DNA of 64,000 nt. It comes from Epinephelus fuscoguttatus (Eukaryota > Chordata > Actinopteri > Perciformes > Serranidae). The stretch spans positions 11,862,428 through 11,926,427 of the forward strand of contig NC_064759.1 of the NCBI RefSeq assembly GCF_011397635.1. The letters run 5' to 3'. Positions 1 through 59,900 of the stretch are shown here, piece by piece. The notes below the pieces were generated by a model. The model made no database searches and was not told the origin of the DNA. It worked only from the letters and a program-made list of their open reading frames with translations. The position numbers were made by a program, and so were the translations under genes. The number at the start of each line of letters is the position of its first letter. The first letter of the stretch is position 1.

Positions 1-460
1 GTAGCTCAAACAATTAAATTGTTTACATATTTTCCGAGTCTTTATAGCTTTGGAGTTTGTGGAGTGCTGAAGCGGTTTCTAAGTATTGCTGCATTTCATT
101 CATAAAAATTGCGTACAAGTTTTTTCTGTTACAAAATTTTCTCTTATGAGTATGGAATTTCACTAAGATAATAAATAGATTAATGATATGGAATTGTGTT
201 TGTTTTGAAATGCTGACATCATAAAATCCAAACGGCACATCTTTGTACAGTAGTGAAAATAGAACATACATGTTGCAACGAATATACTAGGCGCAGCTCC
301 AAAACAAATGTACAGTTACCAAACAATCTTCGACAATGCCGTCTGCAGCTGTGCTGATTTCATATTGAAACAGAATGCTTGATCACTAGGGGAACAGTTG
401 CCATTGTGACTGAGAATTATGTTATGAATATGAACAGTTCACAAGTTACAAATTACTCAC

Positions 461-1239
461 TCCCATAGGTTTTTTTGGAGCCTGCTTGCTTTTTGTAAAC
501 TTGTCTTCATTGGTGGCCCTGAAATGAATGAGGGCTTGTGTTTTGTCTTGTGGCCCTGAAATGGAACAGAGATAACAGCATTACTTTCTTTTCTTTTATA
601 TTTTTTTTTTGGGCTACCTGTCAGGTATTCGTTAAGTTATTAGTTTAGTTTCCTGCAGTATTGCAAGTATTATCACAATGAATGGTTAACATCCAGCAGA
701 ACTGGTGAGGCTGTTTACACAGTCACACAAGTGTTATATGGTGAATTTCATCCACGTTAACATTTCACTCTTTGGGTTTTAAGTTGATATTTAACCAAAT
801 AAGCTGTACCACAACAACCGACGTAACTTATTCAGCGGAAAGTCACCAGATAATACGTTGACTAACGTTAACCTGCAGCTGTAACGTTACCAGCTGCAGA
901 CTCTACGGCTACAGGAGATGACACCGTCCTGTCATCTTACAAAAATGTCGATGCAAACATTTCACGTATATTAAAACAACTTAACAACTACATTATCACT
1001 GAGAAAAATGACTTTCGTAACTGAATGACAGTATACTCGGTTATCAGAGAACCGGGGCAGGCAAGCCATCACCCGCGAGCAAAAATATGTGTGATACGCT
1101 ACAAAGAGGTCTATAGACCATAAAATGACATTAAACTAAGATAATACAATGGTTATCATAATTTTAAAACAACTATTAACAAGGAAAATACTCACATTAA
1201 TAACTCTGCTTCCTTACGCTTGTCACCACCATCTTGCAT
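461..1239 (-). CDS. putative 5' part of an unrecognised gene (two exons)
   Basis: Seen: on the minus strand an ATG at 1239 opens 14 codons (M-Q-D-G-G-D-K-R-K-E-A-E-L-L) and reaches a strong donor (gtgagt) at 1195. A second exon, 518-461, follows a TTTCAG acceptor, joins in the required phase and reads ATNEDKFTKSK then QAPKKPMG before a second gtgagt donor. Exon 1 ends in phase 2 and exon 2 completes the codon. A duplicated acceptor-like block (TGGCCCTGAAATG) lies about 38 bp upstream and would add a few residues. The short peptide vaguely recalls Myb/SANT-like or MADF-type proteins of fish, but this is not firm. Later exons would lie left of 461; nothing convincing was found to the window edge. 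It is divergent from the plus-strand gene that starts before 1646. It could also be a relic or a chance pairing. Confidence 0.33.
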
Positions 1240-1645
1240 TGACTGAATCGTCTGTACTCGGCCGGGTTTGGCTGGGCTCAGTGGATGATACGCAAAGGAT
1301 TCTGGGATAGATCTCACCAGCAAGGGTGGTCCTGGAAAATCTTAAAAGTGAGGGCCATACAGCCCTTATTCTTGACCCTCAATTCAACACTCTGAGAATT
1401 GGGACAGCACTAGCACTTCACGGAGCACGGATTTTTGAGACTGTGGGTTAAGATTGAGGGTTAAGATAGGAATTGGGATTGGGCCTTTGTGTTGTAAACA
1501 CCAGATAGAAAGGGTCATTGAATGGTCTGGGCCCTAAATATATTTCAGAAATGCTCAATGTTTATGACTGTTTTGGAACCAGCTCACTATGGATCAAATC
1601 ATGTGGTCAAAAGATATGTCTGTACTAACATCAGCTGTCTTACAG

Positions 1646-1771
1646 ATGGAGCTCTGCCACATCCGTCCCCCACAAGTTCTCGTCCCCCACAAGTTCTTTT
1701 GCACCGAAAGAAAGCACAAAGACATGATGACGATGGGAGTGATGGTGATGATGAGAGTGATGGTGATGAGG
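1646..1771 (+). CDS. uncharacterised gene, acidic exon copy 1
   Basis: 126 nt, phase 1/1, flanked by CTTACAG and GTAAGT. It encodes Pro/Ser-rich sequence, a basic patch (HRKKAQRH) and an acidic tail (DDDGSDGDDESDGDE). A 17-bp block is doubled inside this copy, making it longer than copy 2. Confidence 0.5.
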
Positions 1772-4700
1772 GTAAGTCCTGGTGTTGTGAACATTAGATA
1801 GAAAAGAGGACATTACATCAGTTGTCAGGTCTTGATGTTGGCATCCAGTCAGATGCACAATTAAATTTAAAGTTTGACTTATTGTCTACAGGTCACTGAA
1901 TGGTCTGGGCCCTAAATATTTTTCAGAAATGCTCAATGTTTATGACTGTTTTGGAACCAGCTCACTATGGATCAAATCATGTGGTCAAAAGATTTCTCTA
2001 TACTAACATCAGCTGTCTTACAGATGGAGCTCTGCCACATCCGTCCCCCACAAGTTCTCATGTTCAGCGCCGAAAGCAAGCACAAAGACATCATGATGAT
2101 GATGGGAGTGATGGTGATGATGAGAGTGATGGTGATGAGGGTAAGTCCTGGTGTTGTGAACATTAGATAGAAAAGAGGACATTACATCAGTTGTCAGGTT
2201 TTGATGCTGACATCCAGTCAGATATACAATTAAATTTAAAGTTTTACTTATTGTCTACAGGTCACTGAATGGTCTGGGCCCAAACATATTTCAGAAATGA
2301 TCTATATTTATGATACTTTTGGAACCAGCTCACTATGGATCAAATCATGTGGTCAAAAGATATCTCTATACTAACATCCACTGTCTTACAGATGGAGCTC
2401 TGCCACATCCATCCCCCACAAGTTCTCGTGTTCATCGCCAAAGCAAGCACAGAGACATGATGATGAGGGTAAGTTCTGGTGTTGCAAAGTCCAACACAAC
2501 CTCAAAATCTGAGATGCAAAACAAGATTTAAGCTTAAAGAAAACATGATTATATGTGTAGCATCTGAGACCTGACAACAGTTTAACTGTTTTGATGTGTC
2601 CTTTGTCAGATGGAAACAAGCAACCCACAAACACCACAAGACAGAAGAGTGTAAAGAAAACTGCAGCTAAACGAAAGTACCATGTTGATGCTGCTGCTGC
2701 TGCTGATGATGGTGAGTCCAGGCAATATACACCTGTGCTCTGAAATTGAATCTTTAACTCTTTCACTGAGCTAATATATATTTCTCAGATGAGAGAGGCA
2801 AAACGTCTCATCCAGAAGACCAACTGTTAAGAGACTTAAGAAGACTGCAAATAAAACACAACACAATGATGACGGTAAGATGAATTTCTATAAGATAGGT
2901 ACATTCTCAGATGAAATTTCAAGTCACTGGGATCAGGTTTTGATCGACTAGGATATTAATCATGTCATTAAATACAAAGATTAAAAGTCACAATTATGAC
3001 ATGAAAATTATACATTTCAGGTAAAAATGCAAAATTTGATAAAATTATGAATTTATGAGGAGATGAGACTTTTATAATTCATGATTAAAAGGTTTAATTA
3101 CATGATTATATTTTGCTGTTTGTCTAGCCATGTACCTACTCTGGTTTGAAAACAAAGCTTCTAACAAGCAGAGAAGAGATTCCCACTCACATAATAACTT
3201 ATCCCTGTATGGATCTGCCATGAGCTTTGTTGAAATCTCAGCTGAGATTCTGTAGCTCTTTGATTTTGATTTAGGCAACACAACTGCAGACTTCAATGAC
3301 ATAGCCACAACAATACTCAATCTCATATTTAAATGATATTGATATTATTCAGCCCTGAACTTAAACTTAAAATGTTTCATGAGGGCATCAGCGCTTACCT
3401 GAGAGTCTACAGCTCAACAGCTGTCGGTGTTGCTAAGGCTGTAGCTGGGAGGATTTTCAAAATAAAACAAAGCCTGGCATTAAACAAAACAGTTGACATG
3501 CTGTGGCCTATTAAACTTTTAAATAACGCATATGTCTCAATAACCCATATGCAGTAACAACTCTGCTCTTGATCCACTCCCCACAGAGGAGGAATAATGA
3601 ATATTATTATTAATATTAATATTATTATCTTATTTCAAAGAGGATCGATTTTGGATTGATTACAGAACCTTATTATCTTAGCTCAGCTATTAGGTTTAAT
3701 TTTTTTTTCTTTAATAGGAGCCTGCTGTCTTTATCTGCTGTTTGCTCAGCAAATAAGCACTTAAACAGTATAATTTTAATGTAATTACTGATATTAATTT
3801 AAAGCATAGATACTTATCATTACTGATTCACCATCAAACTTAACAACCTCCACTGCTGCTACTTCAGGGCTGCAGTTCGTCAACAGGGCTTAATGCAGTT
3901 GGAGGTTATGAGTTGCCAAATCATGGTCAAGAATCCCTTCATCCAAGATGATAACTCTTCATCATCAGAATCAACATTTGGCAGAAAACACTGAATTCAC
4001 TTCAAATGGCTTTATATCCATGTTGTAAACACCGTTTTAAGAAAGACTGAGTTTAACCTCTCTAACTCCGTTCAGACACCGGCGTTCGCCCTCCCGCTCT
4101 CCGCGGTTACATGGTATCTCCTAGGCGCACTATGTCATCACACCCTGTCATGTGTGGTGTAACCGGAAACAGGACGCTCTCTGCTTTCTTAATCCGGCAT
4201 CATTTTTCTATTATTCATTATGGTTTTTGCATCAGAGAAGCCTAAATAAAAGAATTCCAAAAATCGCAGTGAGTGTTGAAAAGTCAAGTAATGACGTTTT
4301 CGAGAGAAAATGTTAAAGGATTACTCGCGATCTCATGTGGGCGGCAAGTGGAGACTTAGATCTTTTATAAAAGGTAAGAGTCTCACTCCTAACCCTATTT
4401 TTGGCTGAGATACACCGTCTAGAAAGTGGGATCATAACTTTCACGTTTCATATGGCTTTATTTGGCGATATTTTATGGTGTTTCTGTCATAAACAACATC
4501 AGCTATCATAATCACACCTGATTTCAATAAGGTACAATGTTTGAAGCTGGCTGAGTGTTGTTTGATCACTGACAGTACTGTTTTGAAGCAGAATGACCAA
4601 CTTGTCATTTGGGGCTCTGCCTGGATCTTTTCATGGAAAAACACTGTAGAATGGTCATACTTTGAGCAATTTTCTTCAAACTTGAAACAAATGTTCACTG

Positions 4701-5278
4701 ATGAATGTTCACTCAGATGAAGCCACAGACAGTTATTCATCCTGAAAATGATTTTTTATTTTATTTTAGGCAAAATCTTCAACTTTTTACTGACTTCAGA
4801 GGCCCATTACTCTGTCTTTGTATCACCTAGAGTGTTTCTGACACTTTCACAAGAAACTTCAGGGAGTTTTCTTTCTGGCAAGACCTCATGCATGCATGTA
4901 GTCAGAGCGGTTCAGAAGCTACACAGTCATTTTAATTTGGGTATGTCATTTTAGGTGTTTTCGCTACAAAATGGGGGTGGAGTCAAGAGGTTAAAATAGT
5001 GAACCTACCCAACAGTTAACCCTGTTTTCTTATTTTTAGGTGTTCCAAAAGTGCGAACAAGCGGCTGGTCTTTTGAGGAGAGGACTGCAGTCCAGCGAAG
5101 GATGGCACGGTTTGTTGCTCTCAGGAAAGTACCAGCAAAGAATGACTGCCTGCTCTGCATCGAGAAAGAGTCTCAGTGCTTAGGAACATGGAAGGATGTT
5201 AAATACTGTGTCTATAATGAAATTCTTAAAGTGGAGAAAATGCTGGGGGTCTATGACTCATGTTTCTCTAGTGTTTAG
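1646..5278 (+). CDS. uncharacterised fish gene with phase-1 exons and a W/C-containing C-terminal domain
   Basis: I do not recognise the product. Seen: exons at 1646-1771, 2024-2140, 2392-2468 (damaged copy), 2610-2711, 2794-2874, possibly 4770-4940, and 5040-5278. Apart from the damaged copy all are phase 1 at both ends and join in frame. The N-terminal part read here is low complexity: Pro/Ser, basic residues, then acidic strings rich in D-G-S-E, suggesting a nuclear protein. The last exon has a compact domain of about 75 residues with conserved-looking W, E-E, K-V-P-x-K-N-D-C-x-x-C-I-E and T-W-K-D-V-K positions. From memory, similar C-terminal segments end many uncharacterised fish proteins. 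No start exon was found. The gene lies on the STX17 strand and seems nested in its last intron. A poly(A) signal at 5429 fits the 3' end. Transcription is untested. Confidence 0.5.
2024..2140 (+). CDS. uncharacterised gene, acidic exon copy 2
   Basis: 117 nt, phase 1/1, with the same acceptor and donor as copy 1. The basic patch reads VQRRKQAQRHH and the acidic tail is the same. Splicing copy 2 directly to the exon at 2610 keeps the frame. Confidence 0.5.
2392..2468 (+). pseudogene. third, frameshifted copy of the acidic exon
   Basis: 77 nt between intact splice sites. Relative to copy 2 one base is missing in the basic patch (CGCCGAAAG has become CGCCAAAG) and most of the acidic GAT/GAG repeat is gone. 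The length is not a multiple of three, so including it would break the phase-1 chain. It is probably skipped or non-functional. Confidence 0.6.
2610..2711 (+). CDS. uncharacterised gene, Lys-rich exon
   Basis: 102 nt, phase 1/1, CTTTGTCAG acceptor and GTGAGT donor. It encodes a basic stretch (QKSVKKTAAKRKYHVD) followed by five Ala and Asp-Asp. Confidence 0.5.
2794..2874 (+). CDS. uncharacterised gene, basic exon with a downstream acceptor
   Basis: 81 nt if the second AG (TCAGATGAG, exon from 2794) is used. This gives phase 1/1 and a basic peptide containing RRPTVKRLKKTANKTQHNDD. Using the first AG (exon from 2789) gives 86 nt and loses the frame. Donor GTAAGA. Confidence 0.4.
4770..4940 (+). 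CDS. uncharacterised gene, doubtful hydrophobic exon
   Basis: 171 nt, open, phase 1/1, between a TTATTTTAG acceptor and a GTATGT donor. The peptide is Phe/Ser/Leu-rich and does not resemble its neighbours. Phase and splice sites fit, but composition makes it less secure than the other exons; the flanking exons also join in frame without it. Confidence 0.3.
5040..5278 (+). CDS. uncharacterised gene, terminal exon with conserved-looking domain
   Basis: The acceptor TTATTTTTAG precedes a phase-1 exon ending in TAG at 5276. It encodes about 79 residues: GWSFEERTAVQRRM, a helix-like stretch, KVPAKNDCLLCIEKE with two Cys three apart, and TWKDVKYCVYNEI. This is the best-supported part of the gene. 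The pattern matches, from memory, a C-terminal module found in many unnamed fish proteins. Confidence 0.6.
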
Positions 5279-5428
5279 AGATTTGATGCAGATATGTTCT
5301 TTAAGATCCAGTCTGCTGGCTACAAGCTGCCAGTGTTCAAATTTTGTATTGAGTTGGCAGTAATAAGTACCATGTTTCTATTGATCAATTTACCAACAGT
5401 TTGTTGAGTTTTTCATTGCAATTTTTGC

Positions 5429-5434
5429 AATAAA
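5429..5434 (+). promoter_or_regulatory. poly(A) signal of the uncharacterised gene
   Basis: AATAAA lies 150 bp after the TAG stop at 5276, a normal distance for a short 3' UTR. Confidence 0.5.
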
Positions 5435-5969
5435 ATTAACAGTTATGTGCTGACACTAGCTGTGTTTCTGTCTTTGACAAATAATCTTCAGTTTTCCTTT
5501 TCATAAATATTCAGCAGTCAAATATCAAAAAGACCCTCTGTTGTATTTGCCTCCTTACATAATAAATTTATGAATAATAAAAATGGCTATTCAGAATTGC
5601 AGAGTCTAAAATTAAACATTTCATTATTGCATATTCAGTATGCAACTTTACTATCACTAAATGAAGTTAAAATGTGTAAAAGAGAGTATCATAGTATGCA
5701 ATTATGCTAAACTTGGCCTCAATAAACCTGTAGTAAGCATATCTCAGTTAATATTCCCAGTGAAATACTTTAAGTTTCCAGTCCTCACTTTGTTGGTTAA
5801 AAACTTTTTCTGAAAACTTTGTGTTTCTCAAAACCTGAAGGGGTGTATAGGGTAAGGGTGCCACCTACTGTCCAGAAATGCTATTTTCATGTTGATAGGT
5901 AAAGCAGAAAGGCCGGTCCTCACTTTGTCAGTCGATTTACTCGGTCCTCACTAAGCAGCAAGTACAAGA

Positions 5970-5970
<1 letters not shown>

Positions 5971-6017
<47 letters not shown>
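5971..6017. repeat. (TG)n microsatellite
   Basis: Uninterrupted TG dinucleotides over 47 bp. Confidence 0.95.
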
Positions 6018-6018
<1 letters not shown>

Positions 6019-6292
6019 ATTAATTGTCATCAGCAAAGAGCACCTTCCACTCTGATGATAACAGCCGTAATAACACACAGGCCGCATCTCTCTGATTTCT
6101 CCTAAATGGAGATAATGAAAACTCTTTGATGCAGCTATGGAAGCGTTGATTTACATTTACACATGCAGGCTTGTTTGTGTCTTTTTCTTCTTCTTCCTCC
6201 TTCCGCGGGTCGATGTGTGATCATGAAAGGATAGACACGTCCAACTCTATCGCAGACTGTCTTGAAGCCACAAAGTAATAATGCCTCCAAAG

Positions 6293-38748: not shown

Positions 38749-41700
38749 ACTGCTGCTCGTTCATGACTAATATTGAGGAGAACTGGCGATTTCTGAGCAA
38801 ATTCTGCCCGTGTGTTGCAGGGGAATGGGCGTTTCCTGAAGCTGCTGCTGTCCAGGCGCGCTAACTGGCTGCAGAAAGATTTAGAGGAGATGACCCCGCT
38901 CCACCTGGCCACCCGACACCCCTCCCCGAAAGCCCTCGCCCTGCTCCTCAAACACATCGGACCTGGAGAGGTTGACACACAAGACAAGAACAAGGTACTA
39001 CAGTGCAGTCACACAGAAGTTTGTTTGTCCTCCCAACTGTCCACAGTTTGTCTTGAGTCAGAAACCAGCCAGTCTCAACAATAACCTGCACACAGATAAC
39101 TGACTGACTGAAGATAGTTTGTTAGGGGCAGCAGGAATTTGACGTCATGTACACATAAACATGAAGAGGCACATGAACACAGCCTCCTTTGTCTGTTGGA
39201 GCTGATGTGTATCTGACATCAATAGTTAGTTTTGTAATAATCCAATATGCATCATCGTGTCAGATGACAGTGGTTTCAGCAAATCTCAGAATAGCTCAGT
39301 AGCCGTCATGGCGGCAGTATCTGGGTTACAATCTCAGTCCACTGCTGGATCTTCAATATGAGCTTTGTGTAGCACGTTGCCCTCACATTTCCTGTCCAAG
39401 TGGAGTAATTGTTTTGTTTTGTTTTTAACGTAAATGGAAACTTCAAACCTGGTGTTACAACAGCCCTCTCTGTTTTAAACTCCATTCATCTTTTTATCAT
39501 CTTTGGCACTTCCTTTTCATCTTTCTCTCACTCTCTGTCTGAGCAGCAAACTGCTCTCCACTGGTCTGCGTTTTATAACCGACCGGAACACGTCCGCCTC
39601 CTGATCAAGCACGACTCCAACATCGGCATCCCAGACAGCGAGGGCAAGATCCCTCTGCACTGGGCGGCGCACAGTCAGGAACCCAGTGCTACGCAAACTG
39701 TCCGCTGCATACTGGTACACACTACACTTCACACATGCACACAAGCACTCAAGTGAATCTGTCATCATCATCCTGCATCATCACCACCCGTCAGTCTGCA
39801 TGTCTGTGTCTTTTCTGTGGTGTGTGTGAGAAGGAAGCAGCTCCCACTGAGTCCCTGTTGAACTGGCAGGACTACGAGGGGCGGACGCCGCTGCACTTTG
39901 CGGTTGCTGACGGTAACGAGGCGGTGGTGGAGGTGCTGACGTCTTATGAGGGCTGTAATGTGACAGCTTATGATAACCTCTTCAGGACACCACTGCACTG
40001 GGCGGCTCTGCTCGGTGAGTGAACACACATCCCAGCATGTGACCCACTGCAGCCTGAATGACAGCGACACACTGACATGAAGGATGTCATGTGGAAACAA
40101 TGACCACTGTCCCCTAAACAGAATTCTAATTAGAAACATTTTTACACTGGTCAGCTGAAGCAAAGCCAAAATGGACTAGTTATTACCGGCTTGGTAAGAT
40201 AATGTTTCATTTAATTTTAGCCATGCTAGCAGCATGTCTCAAGGGACGGCAGCATCTGTTGGTCCTCCACTTTGGTCCATACTGAAATATCCCATAAACC
40301 ATCAGATGAACTGTAGCGCTACAACCAACGATTATTTCCATTACTGATGAATCTGCCAGTTATTTTCTTGATTAATTGATTAATTATTTTGTTAATAACC
40401 TGTCAGAAAAAAGTGAAACGTGTCCTGTATAATTTCCCAGAGCCTCAGGTGACATCTTTAAATGTTTTTTGTTTTTTTTATCAGTCCAGTCCAAACAGTC
40501 CAAAAATTCAAAGCTATTCAAATTATTATCATATATGACAAAGAAAAACATCAAATTCTCACATTTAAGAAGCAGAAAATATTTGGCTTTATTACATAAA
40601 AAGTTGCTAAAATGATTATTTGATTATTGAAATTAGTGCCAAAAACAATTCTGCCGATCAATTAATCCACTTATCGTTGCAGCTCTTATGAATTGCCATG
40701 AATTTATGCGCAGACATTCATGGTCCACAGAGGATGAACCATTGTAACTGTTCCTCTTGTGCTAGGTGACACTACTGCTAGCCTCAGCTGTACTTCGTGT
40801 TCAGTACAAAATAGTAAATGTTAGCATGCTAACAGGCTAAACTAACGGTACGTTTCATTTGCAATGAAAAGTCAGAATTTCCGAGTTCTTAGGCGGAAAT
40901 TTAATCTGACACGCCCCCTTAAGAAGAAGAAAATATACTTAATTAATCACCAAGGAGAAGTTCAATTTTTTTCATTCTATTGTCATATACACACAGACCC
41001 GAAATACACACACATGCATAAACAGGACCTATACATGTATTAAATGGAGAGGTGTCAGTGGGGGTTAAATGCCTTGCTCAAGCCAAGTCCCTTTGGACTG
41101 ACCTACTGCCACCCCAAGTCTGAAACAGTCACACACACAGCACTGTCCAACTTCTATCTGTGGACATGTATCTACGATGTTCATGTGTGCAAAATACAGT
41201 GTAATGCATTATTAAGTGGTATTGCTAACAGTGGCTAACCCTAATAAAACTGGTATTGCTAACAACATCATGGCTTACTGGAATGCTGAGCTCCGACCTC
41301 TGGCTTCCGAGGTAAATGTAACACAGCATGTACCGACCTAATATTAACATGCTAGCATTGTAATTGTGGACATGTTAGCATGCTGATATTAGCATTTAGC
41401 TCAAAACACTGCTGTGCCTAAGCATGACTGTAGACTCAGCCTTGTTTCTGTAGGTTCAGGGTTCCCTGATGTTACATAATATGATAGAAAATGGACTTAC
41501 ACAGTGCTTCTCTAGTCTTCCGACCACTCAAAGTGCTTCGACACTACATGTCACATTCACACACTGGTGGTGAGGCAACTGTACTCCTACTCAGTTACAG
41601 TAAAATGTGCATTCACATAAACACACATGGATCAGGAGCAAATTGGGGTTCAATATCCCGCCCAAGAATACTTTGATATGCAGACTGGGGGAGCTGGGGA

Positions 41701-50700: not shown

Positions 50701-53700
50701 CCGACCTCAACCCACCAAACTGTCAGCGAGTAAGAGCTCGGTGCTGCAAAGCATCTACGGTGAGATCACTGCTCACACTCAGCACCGAAAAAGGATGTCA
50801 CAGATACAGCATGGGTCACACATACAGTATATAACATGATGTATATTGTTGAAGGGAGCAATTACAGACCCTAAACAGTCCCTGAGAGCAATGCTGTGGT
50901 TTGTATGTCTGGTAGTTTAATGGCGTATTAATCAGGTCGATGGCACGCTGTTTGGAAATGGAAGAAGTCATTATTCTAACACAGTGTGTCACTGTTTCCA
51001 TCAGCTGCAGATTCACAGGTCAGAATTGAACAAAGGTAAACTGTGACATCAGAGCTGGCTGAAGCTGAAACCAACACGGGAAGCACATTCTTGAATTAGT
51101 CAGTCACGTGGGCTTTGATTTAATTTAAGTCAGTGAAAGTAAGCGTGAATGTGCACAGGGACTACAAGTTATAAGATAAGTTTGGTGATATTTGTATTAG
51201 GGACAAACTCTCATGAAAAAAAACAACAGAATTCATTCATCGACTTAGTGCTGCCTGTGTATCTAAATCTTTAAACTCCACTTTACAGCAGAGCGTTGCT
51301 GCGAGAAACACATTAATGAGCCACGCTGGGTGACATACTCCTTCGGTACGATGAAGGAAGGAAGGTATAAGGTATAATGATATCTTGATCTGAATTGGTA
51401 TATTGATTCGTTCATTTTCTGTCACCACATATCCTGTTGGGTGTCACTGGGGGTCTGGAGCCTATCCCAGGGTGAGACGTGGGGTGCACACTGGACAGGT
51501 AACACGGATGCGATTCTAATCCGGACATGTTTCAGCTTAATCTGAAATCCTCACCGCTTAACCCTACTATATCTCCCTAAATCTTACACACTGAACTTTC
51601 AGTCGGTGATAGGCAGTTTCCTTAATACACTGGACATGTTTTTGTTATTTTAGGTGTTTGTTTGTGACCATTAAAGGTTGGATAAATGAATTTCAAGGCC
51701 CTAGTGAGGATCGAACTCACGACCCCTGGTTTACAAGACCAGTGCTCTAACCACTGAGCTATAGAGCCTTTGTTATATGCCTCACATCAAGTATGATTAT
51801 TGAGACTACACCTTGAACAATCATGGGTGTGGGCCCTGATGAGATCAACCAGTTACAGGAGTGTCCTGAGCTTTGTTACGCAGCACCAGCTGATTGAAGG
51901 TGGACACTGTTCAATGATGTGACTGCAGATCTAAATATAGATATCTTCAAACCATTTTCCTTTACCATCTTGAAAGAAACTACGGCGAGACAAGGGCGTT
52001 CATTTCAGGGCTCTCAGTCTCAGCTGCTCCTGGACATGCTTCTTTTAATGACACTCTATAAAGTAAACATTGACACCCTCAGAGGGAACATGACACTGAA
52101 TGTGTTAAACTGTGGGACCTTGAACTAATGACTAAGGAGAAATCTGGACCAGTTGGAAACCACTGCTCTAGACAGTAGTGCAACAGCAGCAGTTTTTAAA
52201 CCCACATGTGTGAAACCGTAGCTCCTACGACGCACTCAACATTGTTAACAGAGGAATCTGGGAATCAGGATGGCTGTCATGCCGGTGTAGAACATGCTGT
52301 AAGTGACTAACTCTGCGAACAGGAACCCGTGTAAATGTCTGAGTGATGCTTCAGTCCACATACCAGGACAGTATCAGTCTGGTGTCCTGTGTGGAACCTC
52401 TGCTCGGGTTTCGCCCCACAGACAGCGCTGACCTTCATCACACATCACCAGGTGATGATGGGAGAATGGGCAGAAACCTTGCAGCGCCAAAACATACAAG
52501 CACACACACCATCACCGCTCACAGACAGACAGATAGACCCCCCCCACCCACCCCCACCCCGCTCTGACGTGGTTCTCCCCTCCCCTTTCTCACCTCACCT
52601 CCATCTCTCTCCCTCTCTCTCCCCTTCCCGCTCTCTGACAGTCCTGGCACTGTGAAAAGTTCAGAGCTGTCAGGGGGAATGTCAGACGACTGCGTAGAGC
52701 TATCAGCTGAACACACACAAACCCCGACACAGTGCTACACACATTCATGAGACTCATTCTCGCACTCCTTTTTTTTTTTTTAACTGAAAGTAGACAGGCA
52801 TTTCACTCTGGACTGGGTGACACTGCTCCGCTAATGATCATAACAGGCAACTTAAAAATGGTTTAGTTTTACCTCAAAATGTATCTGTAGCGACAGGCAT
52901 GGAGAGTGAAATGTGTTTTTACATCCCAGATGCAAAACTACACGTATTTATGTGGCACACAATTAGCACCTTCCATCAGCCAAATGCTATTAAAATAGTG
53001 GCTGGTTGATTCATTCACAAGCCCCCAAAACTCAATGGTCAATTGAGTGGCTGTTAAATTTGAACATTCACTAGCCATTTGGCAGCTGGACAAAAAAAAA
53101 GTTGAAGGTAAACATTCGTGTATTCTAACTCGAACCCTATTTCCCCATGTTTTTGTGTCTGAGTGACAAATGGGAACAATTTTTGAATCTGGTTCAGTAA
53201 GATATCCCTTAAACTGTAGCGGCAAAACTCCTAAGGGTAGGTCGCCCCGCTAATTTATGTCCCTTGGGGGCAGTGGTAGCTCGGTCCATAGGGACCTGGA
53301 CCGGCTCAAGTCCTCGTCTGGAGGAAATAGGGAGTGTGATCTGACAGCTGGAGAGGCGCCAGCTCACCTCCTGGGCACTACCAATGTGCCCTGGAGCAAG
53401 GCACCGTATCCCCAATTGCCCAGGGCGCATGTCCACAGGCAGCCCCCTCACCCATTTAATCCATGTATAGGTCCTGTTTGTACGTGTGTGTGTATTTCAG
53501 AGTGAATTGAATTTCCCCTCAGGGATTAATAAAGTATATCATCTTCTTCTTAAAAGTGCTTTCTTTTTGCTGCAATCATGCTCCACTTGTCATTATGAGT
53601 GTCTGACAACATTATGGAAAGAACCCTACAGTGAAATGAAAGGGTTTTCTTTACCCCTATACTGACCTGGGGTCTCATTTACAAAACAGTGCGTAGGATC

Positions 53701-55891
53701 CATATTAAAAATGTACATATAGAGGCATTGGTGGATAGAGCAGGCGCCCCATGTACAAGGCTGTTGCCACAGCAGCCCGGGTTTGACCCCAGCCTGTGGC
53801 CCTCTGCTGCATGTCACTCCCTCTCTCTCTCCCCCCTTCACACTTGTCTGTCCCATCAATTAAAGGCTAAAATATCTTTAAAAAAAAAAAAGTACGTACA
53901 GACAAAAGCCTTGTTTTGTGTGTACGCAGTGTTTATAAATGAGACCCCAGGTGTGTTCATCATTGTGAGTAACCAAGTCTCGCTTAACGGAGAAGTCTCA
54001 TTCTGATGTTTTTTCCCTTTTTTTATGTTGTCAAAATTAGCAAAATATTCAGCCATGACATTGAAAATCTTTTAGGTAACGATAAGATACACTGTCTGTG
54101 CAGTTACACAACACACTCTTCCTGACACTGCTCTCTCCAGCTCTAACTGACTTTTCCAACAACAACGTTGTGTGTTTTTTTTGTTTGTTTTTTTGGCTTT
54201 TATTAGACAGGACAGATTTTAGTGTGGGGGGTTGAACGACATGCAGTGGGGGCCCATGGCTGCTGTGGCAAGGACGATGCCCCCATATGTGGGATGCCCG
54301 CTCCAACCACCGAGCCACCAGGCGCTCCTTCCAATGTTGTTTTTACTGCAACAAGTCACCTTTTGTAAGATTTCCGAGCGAGACATCTCCTTGAGCGAGA
54401 TGTGGTCACAAAAACAAACAGACCAGATCAAGTGAAAGATACGGAAAAACACTTAATTCCTCTGTAGGGTTCTTTCCATAATGTTGTCAGATACTAACAA
54501 TAATACTAACTAATAATAACAACCTGAGCCTGTCAGTGGCAAAAACAAGCACTTTCAATAGACATAAATTGACGGTTCACAATTGTCTGCAGCCTGTCTC
54601 TCTCAATACTGAACCACTTTCAAAGATTGTTGTTCTCTTTATGTTGTTCTCTTTAGCCACTTAGACACAGAAAAGGGTAAATAGGGTCAAGGTTGAATAA
54701 AAAGTTTCCCTTTAAATTTGGCACCCTGTGTGTCCAATAATTGCCGTGTGCAAGCTTGAATAATTTGCTGATGAAAAAAATACAAGACTTTGTGCAAACA
54801 CGGCACGTTAAAAAACACAATAAAGTTTAATTAGTTATTTCCACTGTGCTCCTCGAACATGAGACAATTACACACTAACTTCCTCCTGTGGAATTTCTGT
54901 GTCTGTAGTTAGGTGGTGATAAGTAGCTCCTGCAATACACAGGGTAGTTTTTTTGATGATGTAAGTATTTGTTTGTTATTGTGAACTATTTTTTCAATAA
55001 TATTAAGTCATGACCCCTGGTTTTTCTTTTTAAAGATATTTTTCTGGGCATTTTAGCCTTTAATTGACAGGACAGGTGAGTGTGAAGGGGGGAGAGAGAG
55101 AGAGGGAGTGACATGCAGCAAGGAGCCACAGGCTGGAGTCGAACCCGGGCTTCTGCGGCAACAGCCTTGTACATGGGGCGCCTGCTCTATCCACTAAGCC
55201 ACCAACACCCCAACCCCTGGTTTTTCAATCGGTGATAGGCAGTTTCCTTAATACACTGGACATGTTTTTGTTATTTTAGGTGTTTGTTTGTGACCATTAA
55301 AGGTTGGATAAATGAATTTCAAGGCCCTAGTGAGGATCGAACTCACGACCCCTGGTTTACAAGACCAGTGCTCTAACCACTGAGCTATAGAGCCTTTGTT
55401 ATGTATGAGGAAATCATCTGTGATTCTTAACGCTACACCTTGAACAATCATGGGTGTGGAGCCTCACTAGATCAACCAGTTACAGGAGTGTCCTGAGCTT
55501 TGTTACACAGCACCAGCTGATTGAAAGCTGAGACTGTTCATATAATCTGACTGTAAATCTAAATGAGGATATCATCTAATATTTGTCTTTACTGTCCTTT
55601 AGGAAACTCTATGGCCAGACGAGGGCGTTCACTCCGGGGCTCTCAATCTCAGCTGCTCCTGGACATGCCCTTACGCACCCAGAGCCAGTGTAAGTGAATG
55701 CACAGACACACAGACACACAGAGTTCTGATAAAGTAAAAGCCTCTACAAGGTCATTTTATGTGCTTATTCTACAGTGAGCGGTATAGACTGCGTGCACCT
55801 GACCGATGCCGTGAATCAAGCCCGGCAGTACTCTTACCACCTGAGACCACATAGTGCTGGACAGGGGACCAGAGGCCGGGGAAAACATTGA
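26095..55891 (+). CDS. invs: inversin (NPHP2), complete coding span plus 5' UTR exon
   Basis: Inversin is an ankyrin-repeat scaffold of the proximal ciliary 'inversin compartment'. It recruits NPHP3, NEK8 and ANKS6, shifts Wnt signalling toward planar polarity and is needed for left-right asymmetry and kidney development. Coding exons: 26199-26201, 35616-35715, 37345-37508 (or from 37342), 38821-38994, 39547-39714, 39834-40014, 42210-42319, 42500-42671, 43410-43565, 44050-44171, 45858-45965, 46055-46161, 46254-46463, 47869-48080, 49447-50026, 50608-50759, 55603-55689, 55776-55891. All phases join: 2922 nt or 973 residues (human about 1065). Seen: ankyrin repeats over about residues 16-550, IQ motif 1 at 559-570, an RKQL D-box-like site at 576-579, a low-complexity linker and IQ motif 2 near 849-860. 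The shorter length is in the linker. Confidence 0.95.
27221..28408. mobile_element. foldback element (CACCCACAAAAT family) with insertions
   Basis: The left arm is CCTCACCCACAAAATGAC and the right arm GATTTTGTGGGTGAAG. Inside are a SINE (27384-27617) and, from about 27915 to 28320, another repeat with TTCGACCGTCATGGGCTGGC at one end. Confidence 0.6.
27384..27617 (-). mobile_element. tRNA-derived SINE with target-site duplication
   Basis: Same SINE family as 20791-20984. It is flanked by 15-bp direct repeats, AACACGTGCATTTTC (27369-27383) and AACACATGCATTTTC (27618-27632), with one mismatch. A 20-bp unit is triplicated at 27521-27580 within its head. Confidence 0.85.
30709..30743. repeat. (CA)n microsatellite
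   Basis: 35 bp of CA repeat in INVS intron 1. Confidence 0.95.
30823..30865. repeat. (CA)n microsatellite
   Basis: About 42 bp of CA repeat. Confidence 0.95.
31505..31547. repeat. (TG)n microsatellite
   Basis: About 43 bp of TG repeat. Confidence 0.95.
31692..31750. repeat. (CA)n microsatellite
   Basis: About 59 bp of CA repeat, the longest in the window. Confidence 0.95.
32614..33040. repeat. 21-bp minisatellite
   Basis: About 20 imperfect units of the type TTTTGTGTCTCTTTGWGGTNG. Because the unit is a multiple of three, it keeps a reading frame open as a (LCLFVVV)-like repeat, which is not a gene. Confidence 0.85.
33857..33890. repeat. (CA)n microsatellite
   Basis: 34 bp of pure CA repeat within a longer impure CA/CCCACA tract (about 33845-33915). 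Confidence 0.9.
33920..35610. other. end of INVS intron 1
   Basis: AT-rich intron with a short CA run at 34137-34159. No gene or clear element was recognised. Confidence 0.5.
35616..35715 (+). CDS. invs: INVS exon (residues 2-34)
   Basis: 100 nt, phase 0 to 1. It encodes ASATSSPGPASVGSQVHAAA then VNGDRSALLKLIT, the start of the first ankyrin repeat. Confidence 0.92.
36230..36698. mobile_element. foldback MITE (CACCCACAAAAT family)
   Basis: Near-symmetric ends: TTTTAAAGGAAGACTTCACC and its reverse complement GTGAAGTCTTCCTTTAAA. It is the best-preserved copy in the window, about 470 bp and without nested insertions. Confidence 0.8.
37305..37339. repeat. (TG)17 at an INVS splice acceptor
   Basis: A perfect TG tract runs directly into the TAGCAG acceptor of the next exon and replaces a normal polypyrimidine tract. 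Confidence 0.95.
37345..37508 (+). CDS. invs: INVS exon (residues 35-89)
   Basis: 164 nt, phase 1 to 0. It encodes EPSLRDREDQFGRTPLMYCV and LADRLDCAEILLKAGASVNK, ankyrin repeat 2, very close to mammalian inversin. Starting at 37342 would insert one Ala. Confidence 0.95.
38170..38201. repeat. (TG)n microsatellite
   Basis: 32 bp of TG repeat. Confidence 0.95.
38325..38365. repeat. (CA)n microsatellite
   Basis: About 40 bp of CA repeat. Confidence 0.95.
38559..38583. repeat. (GAT)8 trinucleotide repeat
   Basis: Perfect GAT units over 25 bp, intronic. Confidence 0.9.
38720..38748. repeat. (TG)n microsatellite
   Basis: 29 bp of TG, about 70 bp upstream of the next INVS exon. Confidence 0.95.
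38821..38994 (+). CDS. invs: INVS exon (residues 90-147)
   Basis: 174 nt, phase 0/0. It encodes GNGRFLKLLLSRRANWLQKD and LEEMTPLHLATRHPSPKALA, ankyrin repeats. Confidence 0.95.
39547..39714 (+). CDS. invs: INVS exon (residues 148-203)
   Basis: 168 nt, phase 0/0. It encodes QTALHWSAFYNRPEHVRLLI and KHDSNIGIPDSEGKIPLHWA, two ankyrin repeats. Confidence 0.95.
39834..40014 (+). CDS. invs: INVS exon (residues 204-263)
   Basis: 181 nt, phase 0 to 1. It encodes EAAPTESLLNWQDYEGRTPL and YDNLFRTPLHWAALLG. The acceptor (GTGTGAGAAG) is weak, lacking pyrimidines next to the AG. Confidence 0.93.
41491..41756 (-). mobile_element. tRNA-related SINE of a second family
   Basis: Resembles a common fish SINE: CCACTCAAAGTGCTTC at the 3' part and GGGGATTGAACCACT (a box-B-like segment read on the minus strand) near the head. 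It lies in an INVS intron. Confidence 0.6.
42210..42319 (+). CDS. invs: INVS exon (residues 264-300)
   Basis: 110 nt, phase 1 to 0. It encodes HARIVHLLLERNTSGTIPSD then SQGATPLHYGAQSNNA. Confidence 0.95.
42500..42671 (+). CDS. invs: INVS exon (residues 301-357)
   Basis: 172 nt, phase 0 to 1. It encodes ETVGVFLSHPSVKDEPDLEG and FMWAAGKGSDDVIRTML to DINMADKYGGT. Confidence 0.95.
42950..43260. promoter_or_regulatory. candidate non-coding regulatory block in an INVS intron
   Basis: Unique-looking sequence with TTTATGCATGCGTAA and GTCATGCTAATGAG (octamer-like) near 43030-43075. Inference from composition only. Confidence 0.22.
43410..43565 (+). CDS. invs: INVS exon (residues 358-409)
   Basis: 156 nt, phase 1/1. 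It encodes LHAASLSGHVSTVKLLLERG and MKHTPLFRACEMGHRDVILT. Confidence 0.95.
44050..44171 (+). CDS. invs: INVS exon (residues 410-450)
   Basis: 122 nt, phase 1 to 0. It encodes SARVDLVDVDGHTALHWAAL and GGNAEVCQILMENGISPNVQ. The acceptor (AATGAATAAAG) is purine-rich and weak. Confidence 0.93.
44281..44980. mobile_element. foldback MITE (GTGCAGTGTGTAGGA family)
   Basis: The left end TTAAAGGTGCAGTGTGTAGG is mirrored by ACACACTGCTCCTTTAA at the right end. Internal direct duplication of the GTGAAACTGCTTTA-type block suggests a composite copy. Confidence 0.7.
45858..45965 (+). CDS. invs: INVS exon (residues 451-486)
   Basis: 108 nt, phase 0/0. It encodes DQAGRTPLQCAAYGGYITCM and AVLMENNADPNIQDKE. 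Confidence 0.96.
46055..46161 (+). CDS. invs: INVS exon (residues 487-521)
   Basis: 107 nt, phase 0 to 2. It encodes GRTALHWSCNNGYLDAVKLL and ends NHMEHTEE. Confidence 0.95.
46254..46463 (+). CDS. invs: INVS exon (residues 522-591, IQ motif 1 and D-box)
   Basis: 210 nt, phase 2/2. It encodes the last ankyrin repeat (YTPLDYALLGGHSEVTQFML), then IQ motif 1 (SIQAVYKGYTVR), which binds calmodulin in the family, followed by RKQLLMRHEQL. RKQL matches the RxxL destruction-box consensus reported for APC2 binding. Confidence 0.95.
47869..48080 (+). CDS. invs: INVS exon (residues 592-662)
   Basis: 212 nt, phase 2 to 1. It begins KREEEQRRREAVQRVS, the charged helix also found after the first IQ motif in mammals, then diverges into the linker. 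Confidence 0.9.
48655..49215 (+). mobile_element. non-LTR retrotransposon 3' fragment (Rex3/RTE-like)
   Basis: Encodes the C-terminal end of a LINE reverse transcriptase, with AKLSIYWSIYVPTLTYGHEL and SSDIRRELGVRLLLLRIKRG. A frameshift near 49020 moves the conserved end (EELESVAGERDVWGALLGLL) to another frame. The 3' tail is GGATG-rich, as in Rex3-type elements. It sits in the INVS intron before the large linker exon. The clade name is from memory. Confidence 0.75.
49447..50026 (+). CDS. invs: INVS large linker exon (residues 663-855)
   Basis: 580 nt, phase 1 to 2. Low-complexity Ser/Pro/Thr/Lys linker with little conservation, ending NDAACIIQRAWR, the beginning of IQ motif 2. A single large exon is also found in other vertebrates for this region. 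Confidence 0.92.
50608..50759 (+). CDS. invs: INVS exon (residues 856-906)
   Basis: 152 nt, phase 2 to 1. It completes IQ motif 2 (AWRRFHAHRQR) and ends SSVLQSIYG, matching the mammalian SVLKQIYG. Confidence 0.92.
51696..51768 (-). tRNA. tRNA-Thr (TGT)
   Basis: 73 nt on the minus strand. Acceptor stem GGCTCTA pairs with TAGGGCC (one G-U), the D arm is AGCTCAGTGGTTAGAGC, the anticodon stem is CTGGT/ACCAG with loop CTTGTAA (anticodon TGT), and the T loop is TTCGATC. No TTTT terminator follows closely at the 3' side, so expression is uncertain. Confidence 0.88.
51976..52050 (+). pseudogene. decayed duplicate of an INVS exon
   Basis: Aligns with the exon at 55603-55689 through the residues RGRS, GSQSQLLLDM. 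The acceptor TTTAG has become TGAAAG, small indels follow AAACT, and the 3' end, including the donor, is replaced after CTGGACATG. It should not splice as an INVS exon. Confidence 0.8.
53264..53548 (+). mobile_element. SINE with GAATTTCCCCTCAGGGATTAAT tail
   Basis: tRNA-like head (GGGGGCAGTGGTAGCTCGGT, then GGCTCAAGTCC) and a 3' end AATTTCCCCTCAGGGATT followed by AATAAAGTAT. It lies in the penultimate INVS intron. Confidence 0.65.
53669..53950. mobile_element. MITE (GGGGTCTCATTTACAAA) interrupted by a SINE
   Basis: Left end TGGGGTCTCATTTACAAAAC and right end TTATAAATGAGACCCCA are inverted repeats. Between them sits a SINE at 53721-53891. Confidence 0.75.
53721..53891 (+). mobile_element. tRNA-derived SINE nested in the MITE
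   Basis: Same family as 20791-20984, plus orientation, ending in a run of 12 A. GTACATA and GTACGTA flank it, possibly a degraded target duplication. Confidence 0.75.
54172..54328 (-). mobile_element. tRNA-derived SINE (diverged)
   Basis: Minus-strand copy of the same family with a degraded head (CACCGAGCCACCAGGCGCTCC on the plus strand) and T-rich 5' border. Confidence 0.6.
55019..55213 (-). mobile_element. tRNA-derived SINE
   Basis: Full-length minus-strand copy, adjacent to the duplicated tRNA-Thr block that begins at 55226. Confidence 0.75.
55226..55680 (+). repeat. duplicated block, copy B (tRNA-Thr plus functional INVS exon)
   Basis: Counterpart of 51600-52050; this copy keeps a working acceptor (CCTTTAG) and donor for the INVS exon at 55603, so it is likely the ancestral location. 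Confidence 0.9.
55322..55394 (-). tRNA. tRNA-Thr (TGT), second copy
   Basis: Identical in all 73 positions read to the copy at 51696-51768: same stems, TGT anticodon and TTCGATC T loop. It lies in the last-but-one INVS intron, antisense to INVS. Confidence 0.88.
55603..55689 (+). CDS. invs: INVS exon (residues 907-935)
   Basis: 87 nt, phase 1/1. It encodes NSMARRGRSLRGSQSQLLLD and MPLRTQSQ. Being symmetric, it could be skipped without a frame change. Confidence 0.88.
55776..55891 (+). CDS. invs: INVS terminal exon
   Basis: 116 nt, phase 1, ending TGA at 55889. It encodes LSGIDCVHLTDAVNQARQYS and YHLRPHS, matching the mammalian end (CIHLLENSGRSKNFSYNL), then a short basic tail. Confidence 0.92.
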
Positions 55892-56982: not shown

Positions 56983-59900
56983 CTGAAACACACAGAGAGA
57001 AATCATGACAAGTTAACATACATTATCTCTACGTAGAGTGACGAAAATGACGATAACAGTACGCTTAAAGGAATTCTTAACCCAGAAAATAACCATTGGT
57101 ATGTGTATTAGTCATACCATGTTACCCTGAAAACGCCGAACATTTTGATTTATTGATTAATTGGGGACCATGTTCCAAACATCCTTTTATGAACCATCTC
57201 ACAGAATTAACTCGCAGTCGTGGAGGGGCTGCAGCCTATCCCAGTTGACATTGATCAAAGGGCAGGGTACACCCCTGGATAGGTTGCCAAATTATCACAG
57301 GGACAGACAACCATTCACACCTATGGGGAATTTAGAGTCACCTAGCCTGCATGTCTTTGGATTGTGGGAGGGAGCTGGAGTATCCAGAGAAGGCCCATGC
57401 TGACATGGTTTGGGAGGCTGACATAGAGAGAACATGCAGACTCTGCACTCCAGACTCCCACTGCCTCTCACGCACAACTGGTGCGGTATAATCCAAGTCT
57501 CATTTATCCAGTCGTATGCTCAGTACTTCCAAAACGGTACTTCAAAAAAACTTAGTGCTGGAGTCTGGCTTTGAAGAGAGCATTGATAAGTTTCATTTTC
57601 AGTTCAGTTTCAAATGATAAGGTTTAGCAAAAATACATGTGTTTGGGAAGTATTGAGTGTATGACTGGATAAATGAGACTTGGATTATACTGCATGAGTT
57701 GCATGAGAGTTTGTTAATGGGTGTTTTGCTGTTATCAAATCATTTGTTGATCTGTTCTGTACGACATCTATTGCACGTCTGTCCGTCCTGGAAGAGGGAT
57801 CCCTCCTCAGTTGCTCTTCCTGAGGTTTCTACCATTTTTTCCCAGTTAAAGGTTTTTTTGGGGGAGTTTTCCCCTCTTGAGGGCCAAAAGGACAGAGGGA
57901 TATCGTATGCTGTAAAGCCCTCTGAGGCAAATTGTGATTTGTGATATTGGGCTTTGTAAATAAAATTGAAAATTGAAATGTGGTCCGTAATCAATCAATA
58001 AATCAGTATGTTCACCATTTTCTGTGGCCGCATGCAAGAAAAACAAAGTTTTATTCCCAAATTCAAGGTAACACAGCATGACTAATTTACAAGTGGTCAT
58101 TTTGTAGGTGAAGGATTACTTTAAGGTGAAACCTATACCAATAGAGTACTTTACTTTGATACCTTTTTTCTACTTAATTAGATACCAATCGTGTGAACAT
58201 GGGCATTCAATTGTGTAAAATGCCAACAGACACCACAGGCACATCATATGACCATACTTTAGACCATGGCCAGGTGGCATCTCAGAGCACTGAACTACCA
58301 ACTCCATTGAACACACCACACTTAACCACAAACTGTATGGGTTGTAGCTGCTGCAGTAGTGGGCCAATCACATGTTGCAGTAAATGGAAGAACACTTGCG
58401 GTGATTGGCGTGTAAAATCATACACATCTTTTTCCAGATCTGGGTACAAAACATTCAAAGGCAGGTATCGTTTGGCTGGAGAAGTTTCGATACTTCGGTC
58501 TTTATCTTAACAAGCTATAATGCACTGATTCCCAGCCCTACCATACTATACAAACTGTAGTGTAGCCTTAAAACCATCCCTGTGAATGTCCTATCTGAGC
58601 TGCGTTTACCGTGAGGTGTTGGATGATCTCTTGCAGCAGAGCAGCGTTGGCCAGCAGCTGGTTGTGGAGCGGCGTGTGCTGCAGCAGCATCGACAGGACC
58701 TGTCCGAGCTGCGGCAGCTCCTCCTCACTCAGATCTCCAACGCGCATTAACTGCAATACCATCCGCAGCAGGCGAGGGACGGTGCTCAACGCTGACACAC
58801 AAGCACCCCATATTGCCTCCCTGCAAATGTGACACAAAAATGTTTTAAACCCAACTGTTCCCAACTCTTCATCGCCTGATAACTGCAAACTGCTCCTATT
58901 GAGGTCAAGATTTCAAACACAGATCAGAGGGTTGTAGTTAAGGATGCACCGATACTAATGTTTAAAATTATAATTTGGCCAATGGGTTAACATAATTTAC
59001 CTTCACCCAATACTCATTTTTACTGAATAAAGCTTGAACGAATCACAGCGTAACTCAATACAACCTCAGTTAGTTGTTTGTTCCGGCCACTAGCTGCTAG
59101 CGTCTAACGTTAACTCATTCTCCTCCTGTTCATGTAAACATGGACTTGTTTTTCACAATGTAGCTTTATCATAGAAAAAATAGGGTGAATCCTGTGACAT
59201 ATCGATAATGAAGTTTACTGCCTTTTTTCTGTCCCGAGGGCTTCCTAGGAAAGATGTGTTTGTCTCAAAATGTTTTCTATTTCTAGCTTGCATAAAATTA
59301 ATGTGACATAACGGAAAAAAATTGGCCTCTGCCGAGCGTCATCTCATTTGCCGACAGGCCGATGGCAGTCGACAAAGCAAGTATCAGCCAACACCAATGT
59401 TTGGCTGATATATCGGTGTATCCCTAGCTGTAGTCATTCAACACACACACCTTTTGTGGTTGGTTTCAGCAGGTAACTCCTGCTGCAGGGTGATGAGCAA
59501 AGACAGCAGGCTGAGGCAGCACTGAGACAAGAAGCGCAGCACAGGCTCAATGGGCAGAACAGACAGGTCCAGTAACCTGGAAACAGCTCTGAGCAGCCCG
59601 GCAGCCATACTGTCAGGCACCACCCCTAAGTTGGTCTGAGACATACACACACAAAACAGATACAGGATGTATATTCAGTATCATGTTTTCAAAGGAAGAC
59701 AACAGCAGTAGAGCTTAGACTGAAACAAGCACTACATGATAGATAAATCATCAACATCATTTCCTGCTTAATGAAAACCGCTTCTTACCAGGTATTTGCA
59801 AATGCCATTTTGTAAGATGTCAAAGCATTGGGACTTTGAACCCAGAGTTTCCAGACAGTGGCAGACTTCCTGTGAATTATACAAGAAACAATTTCATATC

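Follow-up and report, generated by a model that had tools for sequence, protein, structure and literature searches.

The tandem array of acidic exons at the start of the analysed stretch of the Epinephelus fuscoguttatus genome (64,000 nt, locus C8, hereafter the window) is part of a gene carried by a dispersed mobile element of approximately 25 kb. It is probable that the array represents a symmetric exon duplicated in tandem within a mobile-element gene that encodes a recombinase-like protein. The first-pass annotation of this DNA had assigned the array to an uncharacterised gene; its actual host is the dispersed element and not an ordinary gene, and the ordinary host-gene reading was dropped once copies of the region were found throughout the genome.

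The array region (1489–2530) contains three tandem units with start-to-start distances of 378 and 368 bp, preceded by the stub of a further unit:

1489–1511, plus strand: stub of the preceding unit, corresponding to the start of that unit's 3' intron
1513–1890, plus strand: unit 1, with approximately 85 nt absent between it and the stub
1646–1771, plus strand: predicted exon of unit 1 (126 nt), intact, phase 1/1 with AG/GT borders
1891–2259, plus strand: unit 2
2024–2140, plus strand: predicted exon of unit 2 (117 nt), intact, phase 1/1 with AG/GT borders
2260–2484, plus strand: unit 3, 3' part gone
2392–2468, plus strand: unit 3 exon, 77 nt, off-frame through a 1-nt deletion

The spacing and the TRF result (period 369, 2.2 copies, 91% match) bear out the tandem array of approximately 370-bp units described earlier, and the best self-repeat scores 837 bits, far above the maximum of 27.4 in 100 Markov-1 resamples. 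Three complete symmetric exons had been claimed, which is correct for units 1 and 2, encoding DGALPHPSPTSS...DDDGSDGDDESDGDE, but not for unit 3, the exon of which also lacks most of the acidic tail. Among six sister copies, the counterpart of the unit 3 exon measures 78 nt in C22, C5, C18, and C20, 77 nt in C7 via a different deletion, and 74 nt in C19. Likewise, the first two copies do differ by an internal duplication, as had been stated (17 bp at 1664–1697, together with a 3-nt gap), but seven substitutions in their exons add to this difference. An assembly error had been named as a possible refutation of the array. Collapse is ruled out because the units differ by 4–9% in their shared introns and because seven further copies, located on other contigs, have arrays of 3, 4, or 11 units. 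Among the 5' introns, those of units 1 and 2 are closest (96.2%), with unit 3 at about 91%. Pairwise exon identities (93.9%, 84.4%, and 92.2% for pairs 1–2, 1–3, and 2–3) compare with intron identities of 96.2%, 90.9%, and 91.7%, respectively, without clearly higher conservation of the exons. Judging from these sequences, unit 3 is apparently older than units 1 and 2.

Downstream of the array, the gene is predicted to continue with three further exons:

2610–2711, plus strand: next exon, GNKQPTNTTRQKSVKKTAAKRKYHVDAAAAADD, 102 nt, phase 1/1
2789–2874, plus strand: second exon after the array, 86 nt, off-frame through a 1-nt deletion
5040–5278, plus strand: last exon with the stop codon, encoding a C-terminal domain with two conserved tryptophans; private indels in the window copy

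The second of these exons measures 87 nt in C22, C5, C18, C7, C19, C20, and C4, and 82 nt in C14, so that the deletion is private to the window copy. The distance between the stop codon of the gene and the right end of the element is 0.7 kb. For the last exon, no relevant Pfam match was obtained. A single-sequence AlphaFold model (mean pLDDT 49) predicts low-confidence helices at residues 11–28, 33–43, 50–61, and 67–74; a Myb/SANT-like DNA-binding domain, which has a three-helix fold with conserved tryptophan, is a candidate identity for this part of the protein. Three stretches in viral contigs fit a pattern of the last exon, none of which was confirmed; the plasmid search gave only four weak Leptolyngbya matches (E 0.5), which were disregarded, and the phage search gave no matches.

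When the last exon was searched against the genome of origin (1.05 Gb), 44 matches were obtained, nine of which show 77–100% identity and lie on nine contigs, including that of the window. Eight other copies were compared together with their flanks (C22, C5, C18, C7, C19, C20, C14, and C4). By blastn, the window matches C22, C5, C18, C7, C19, and C20 at 95.8%–98.5% from position 1 to approximately 5992–6017; the match to C14 starts no earlier than unit 3, and that to C4, at 90%, begins with the array. Homology extends upstream of the window to one common left start in eight copies, which makes window positions 1–5970 the right-hand part of the element:

1–5970, plus strand: right-hand part of the element; the whole spans C8:11843062–11868397 (25,336 bp), the rest lying upstream of the window
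1448–1481, minus strand: 34-bp inverted repeat, with its partner 326–359 bp upstream of the window (L025 9570–9603)
5943–5970, minus strand: terminal inverted repeat of the right end (minus-strand sequence TTCTTGTACTTGCTGCTTAGTGAGGACC), matching the left end at 24/28 positions
5971–6017, no strand assigned: (TG)n tract, the probable insertion target

Paired ends were found at C4, C5, C7, C8, C18, C19, C20, and C22, between 24,587 and 26,700 bp apart, the largest spacing being that of C4. The left end reads TTCTTGCACTTGCTACATACTGAGGACC and the right end is its imperfect inverse over the 28 bp of the terminal inverted repeats; a second inverted block near the ends is perfect over 22 bp. TG-rich tracts abut all eight left and nine right ends examined, although the left tracts are interrupted in five of the eight (C8, C19, C22, C5, and C7), and these flanking tracts form direct repeats. 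Under a criterion that differs from that for the TG-rich end tracts, pure GT/CA tracts of at least eight units make up 0.83% of window positions 6101–64000. Because the flanks consist of (TG)n, a target-site duplication cannot be delimited. Long copies with such high similarity could also be mere segmental or assembly duplications and not a mobile element, but the same two ends recur in eight copies with differing flanks, all at TG-rich tracts and each on a different contig, which leaves this explanation with a close to negligible probability.

A genome-wide pattern search for the end repeat with at most three mismatches gave 138 sites (70 + 68), compared to none for the reversed control. Among the end sites listed, eight loci have both ends and C14 has one. 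The 138 end-like sites outnumber the full elements, and such ends are therefore commoner than the full element. Most of the listed sites are without a listed partner and probably represent shorter derivatives or solo ends. Further repeats occur inside the element: a second tandem array in its middle (L026 6025 to L025 2069) has a unit of approximately 1.18 kb with a 287-bp sub-period and varies in extent between copies, and an inverted repeat of approximately 827 bp (L025 6279–7106 and 8022–8846) has arms that are 97.8% identical.

Outside the element, the window contains two tRNA-Thr (TGT) genes with equal Rfam scores on the minus strand (51695–51769 and 55321–55395), 3.6 kb apart. It also contains an ankyrin-repeat stretch on the plus strand (39409–39756) and a TEX10-like TPR exon on the minus strand (58568–58912), which fit the gene order of the vertebrate INVS-TEX10 neighbourhood.

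The least damaged copy found is the diverged 26.7-kb element C4, from which the structure of the gene was read. Its open stretch starts directly behind the stop codon at L024 9092, encodes an N-terminal part in which an acidic/Ser motif recurs and a CxxC...HxxxxH motif is present, and enters a 488-codon open frame (L023 2–1465) in which a phase-1 GT donor was placed at 1412. This is followed by ten full unit exons of 111, 90, 114, 111, 90, 96, 90, 108, 96, and 90 nt, all of which are multiples of three in phase 1/1 (a degenerate partial first unit was omitted from the ten), and by exons of 102 and 87 nt. The joined frame of the recombinase-like region, the ten unit exons, and the two following exons comprises 1135 aa, counted from just after the upstream stop codon and not from a start codon, and is free of stops. 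The last exon, read separately from this join, has an open frame starting in phase 1 and reads DVSKVQTKRPWSVEERTAVQRRMTKFVALRKVPAKNDCLLCIEKESPVLSTRTWKDVKYFVYNEIVKVKKKLAF. With the gene junctions in phase 1, the predicted protein would thus begin with an acidic/Ser-rich part with zinc-finger motifs, followed by the tyrosine-recombinase-like region, the acidic part from the ten unit exons, the part from the two exons after them, and a basic C-terminal domain with the two tryptophans. The array would then form a linker between the recombinase and the C-terminal domain. Many uncharacterised fish proteins may have such an N-terminus, recombinase block, and C-terminal domain. A 128-aa lysine-rich, exon-like open stretch elsewhere in C4 (L024:2394–2777, minus strand), which has no Pfam match, may belong to a second gene.

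Tyrosine recombinases are characterised by the catalytic residues Arg...Lys...His/Lys-x-x-Arg...His/Trp...Tyr in this order. The C4 frame contains KREGEASRL, GKRGRKVP, STKLRKH, and GHDIRVHCDYY in the corresponding order (fourth motif, MGHDIRVHCDYYR), with a His-to-Tyr spacing of 9, as in lambda. The tyrosine is invariant in all six aligned members, a seventh (C6) having been left out of this count since its stretch ends before this residue; C13 does not have the histidine of the motif block. When seven family members were aligned with eleven phage integrases by hhalign, GKRGRK and GH(x)8Y of the C-terminal half were collinear over K235, H333, and Y342 of lambda Int, with a score of 23.5, where 30 column shuffles reached at most 19.0, at a probability of only 2.2% (P 0.021). 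The full-length comparison gave a different alignment at 0.6% probability, a value that the best of the shuffles equalled or exceeded. Pfam searches with the region up to E = 10 yielded no relevant match and none near the cut-off, the weak matches including DUF1484 (E 0.025) and a MOM1-like domain (E 0.0079 in two of seven members), and searches of PHROGs and PDB sequences found nothing relevant. We regard the region as probably a tyrosine recombinase, an assignment made on the ordered motifs without a significant profile match.

The 464-codon block of the C4 frame has at least 97 matches genome-wide. Twenty-five of the 44 last-exon matches lie at most 10 kb downstream of a recombinase-like match on the same strand; no such match is found near the eight window-type or truncated last-exon copies, nor near 11 others. 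Two relatives without stops, C21 and C15, are 62%–64% identical to the C4 block. The values for C4–C21 (pN 0.22 vs. a saturated pS of 0.79) and for C21–C15 (dN/dS 0.245) speak for purifying selection having probably acted on the recombinase-like frame, and the right flanks of C21 and C15 remain 99.3% alike throughout the 1.3 kb compared. C21, the 64%-identical relative, carries the last exon, and no tandem array was found in the 6.2 kb examined; the recombinase-like family therefore does not need the array.

Unit number differs considerably between copies. Counted by the shared 5' intron, there are three units in C8, C18, C19, and C20, four in C22, C5, and C7, and 11 in C4 including its partial first one, with only a remnant kept in C14. 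The C4 units alternate between sequence types (DGALPH... and DAGLPR...), a sign of multi-unit duplications. We propose that a single symmetric exon was duplicated in tandem together with the introns on either side, and that unequal recombination or slippage between introns of approximately 90% or more identity may then have altered the number of units with the frame kept, each additional exon lengthening an acidic linker. As the exons are symmetric and the introns similar, such changes in number are neutral for the frame, and the gain and loss of acidic modules suggested in the first-pass annotation is thus a sound mechanism for the gene of the element. Counts of 3–11 units and the uniformly symmetric exons of C4 agree with this suggestion, which does not extend to a working product of the window copy.

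In the window copy, the acidic N-terminal stretch joins directly to an apparent unit-type exon tail, RRKAVTTRRHDDGAE (cf. RKKAVTTQRHDDGE in C4), followed by a stretch of approximately 1.84 kb that is bounded by the 34-bp inverted repeats and was not found in C4. The window-type copies are without the recombinase region, none of the at least 97 matches falling in them, and the upstream frames of the window copy contain stops. Across the eight window-type copies including C14, the proportion of variable columns reaches 0.035 for the last exon, 0.029 for exon 2610–2711, and 0.011 for exon 2789–2874, compared to 0.030 for the long intron and 0.019 for the 3' flank; only exon 2789–2874 is set apart by varying less than the long intron. 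On average, pairs of window-type copies diverge by 0.0087 in the last exon, vs. 0.0101 in the long intron. Of 23 unit exons recovered by a pattern search in seven window-type copies, which missed one C22 exon, six are not a multiple of three, vs. none of the ten full exons in C4. These comparisons suggest that the window-type copies are young, with exons under no clear constraint. The loss of the recombinase region and the lack of clear purifying selection make a functional protein from the window copy unlikely, and most likely this copy is non-autonomous and encodes no working protein.

Alternatively, the window copy could be a functional, perhaps domesticated host gene that uses the acidic exons as modules and skips those that are off-frame. 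GT donors and AG acceptors are indeed kept at five internal exons, as is the AG before the last exon, and a chain of the unit 1 and unit 2 exons, exon 2610–2711, and the last exon is open to the stop codon if both off-frame exons are skipped. However, the other five of the six exon chains tried, all of which include at least one of the off-frame exons, reach a stop in a wrong frame, and the 1-nt deletions in the unit 3 exon and in exon 2789–2874 are found in no other copy examined. Together with the absent recombinase region, the upstream stops, and the lack of clear exon constraint across the eight copies, these features make a functional host gene highly improbable, and we retain the reading of a non-autonomous element copy.

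How the element moves is a separate question. On our tentative reading, it would be a fish DNA transposon of 25–27 kb moved by a zinc-finger tyrosine recombinase, excised as a circle and integrated into (TG)n, with joined ends that resemble a core site and an acidic linker the length of which is set by the fast-changing exon array. The recombinase would be active, its gene would move the element, and the window copy would have been moved in trans. If joined on a circle, the ends would give AGCAAGTACAAGAA-(TG)n-TTCTTGCACTTGCT, that is, 14-bp arms (13/14) around a TG core. This is close to the layout of tyrosine-recombinase sites given in PMC3212892, with arms of 11–13 bp and a spacer of 6–8.

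It is also possible, if somewhat doubtful, that the element is a transposon with terminal inverted repeats mobilised by an undetected DDE transposase, possibly acting in trans, with the recombinase-like gene as cargo. The 28-bp imperfect terminal inverted repeats would suit such an enzyme, as would the excess of end-like sites over full elements. In addition, crab nimaviruses are reported to insert into (AT)n microsatellites by a Ginger2-like DDE route that involves inverted ends (PMC10871703). We keep this explanation because the same source reports both recombinase-linked and DDE routes. On the other hand, a scan of 30 C4 ORFs (70 aa or longer), about one-third of the 93 listed, found no DDE domain, although small exons would escape such a scan, and the direct repeats formed by the flanking TG tracts are compatible with a recombinase too.

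Several features of the recombinase-driven transposon proposed here have parallels in known systems. Modular genes contain symmetric exons that were duplicated in tandem. The present array is similar in that a whole phase 1/1 exon was duplicated with its flanking introns, but it sits in the gene of a mobile element, the paralogous copies of which have 3 to 11 units. Cryptons are DNA transposons with a tyrosine recombinase, without terminal inverted repeats, and with short direct repeats at their termini, as described in PMC3212892. The element resembles those described there in its recombinase-like gene, non-autonomous derivatives without it, short direct flank repeats, and fish hosts (medaka), but differs in its 28-bp imperfect terminal inverted repeats and its length of approximately 25 kb. 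The Crypton-type domain DUF3504 is absent from the Pfam matches of the recombinase-like region, and none of the at least 97 family places coincides with the 141 DUF3504 places, the nearest pair being 9.98 kb apart. These 141 genomic matches were obtained at E values up to 1, and many have open frames.

According to PMC10871703, endogenous nimaviruses of crustaceans encode repeat-specific tyrosine recombinases with a C2H2 zinc-binding domain and insert in (TAACC)n. The fish element would share this link between a zinc-binding recombinase and insertion in one simple repeat, but the nimaviruses are large viral genomes at (TAACC)n and the fish element is found at (TG)n, so that we regard this as a parallel only. 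No viral domain above the cut-off was recognised in the element ORFs scanned. A tyrosine-recombinase element of fish that is bounded by terminal inverted repeats and targets (TG)n was not found in the accessible literature (including the available parts of PMC3212892, PMC6431247, PMC7599744, and PMC10871703).

For genome annotation, these results mean that the window array should not be described as a host gene with modular exons. If the proposed recombinase-driven reading is true, the element would combine a very large recombinase-type DNA transposon of a vertebrate, insertion into a dinucleotide microsatellite, and a linker set by an exon array, features that are rarely found together. Microsatellite targeting and the evolution of linker length would then become directly testable.
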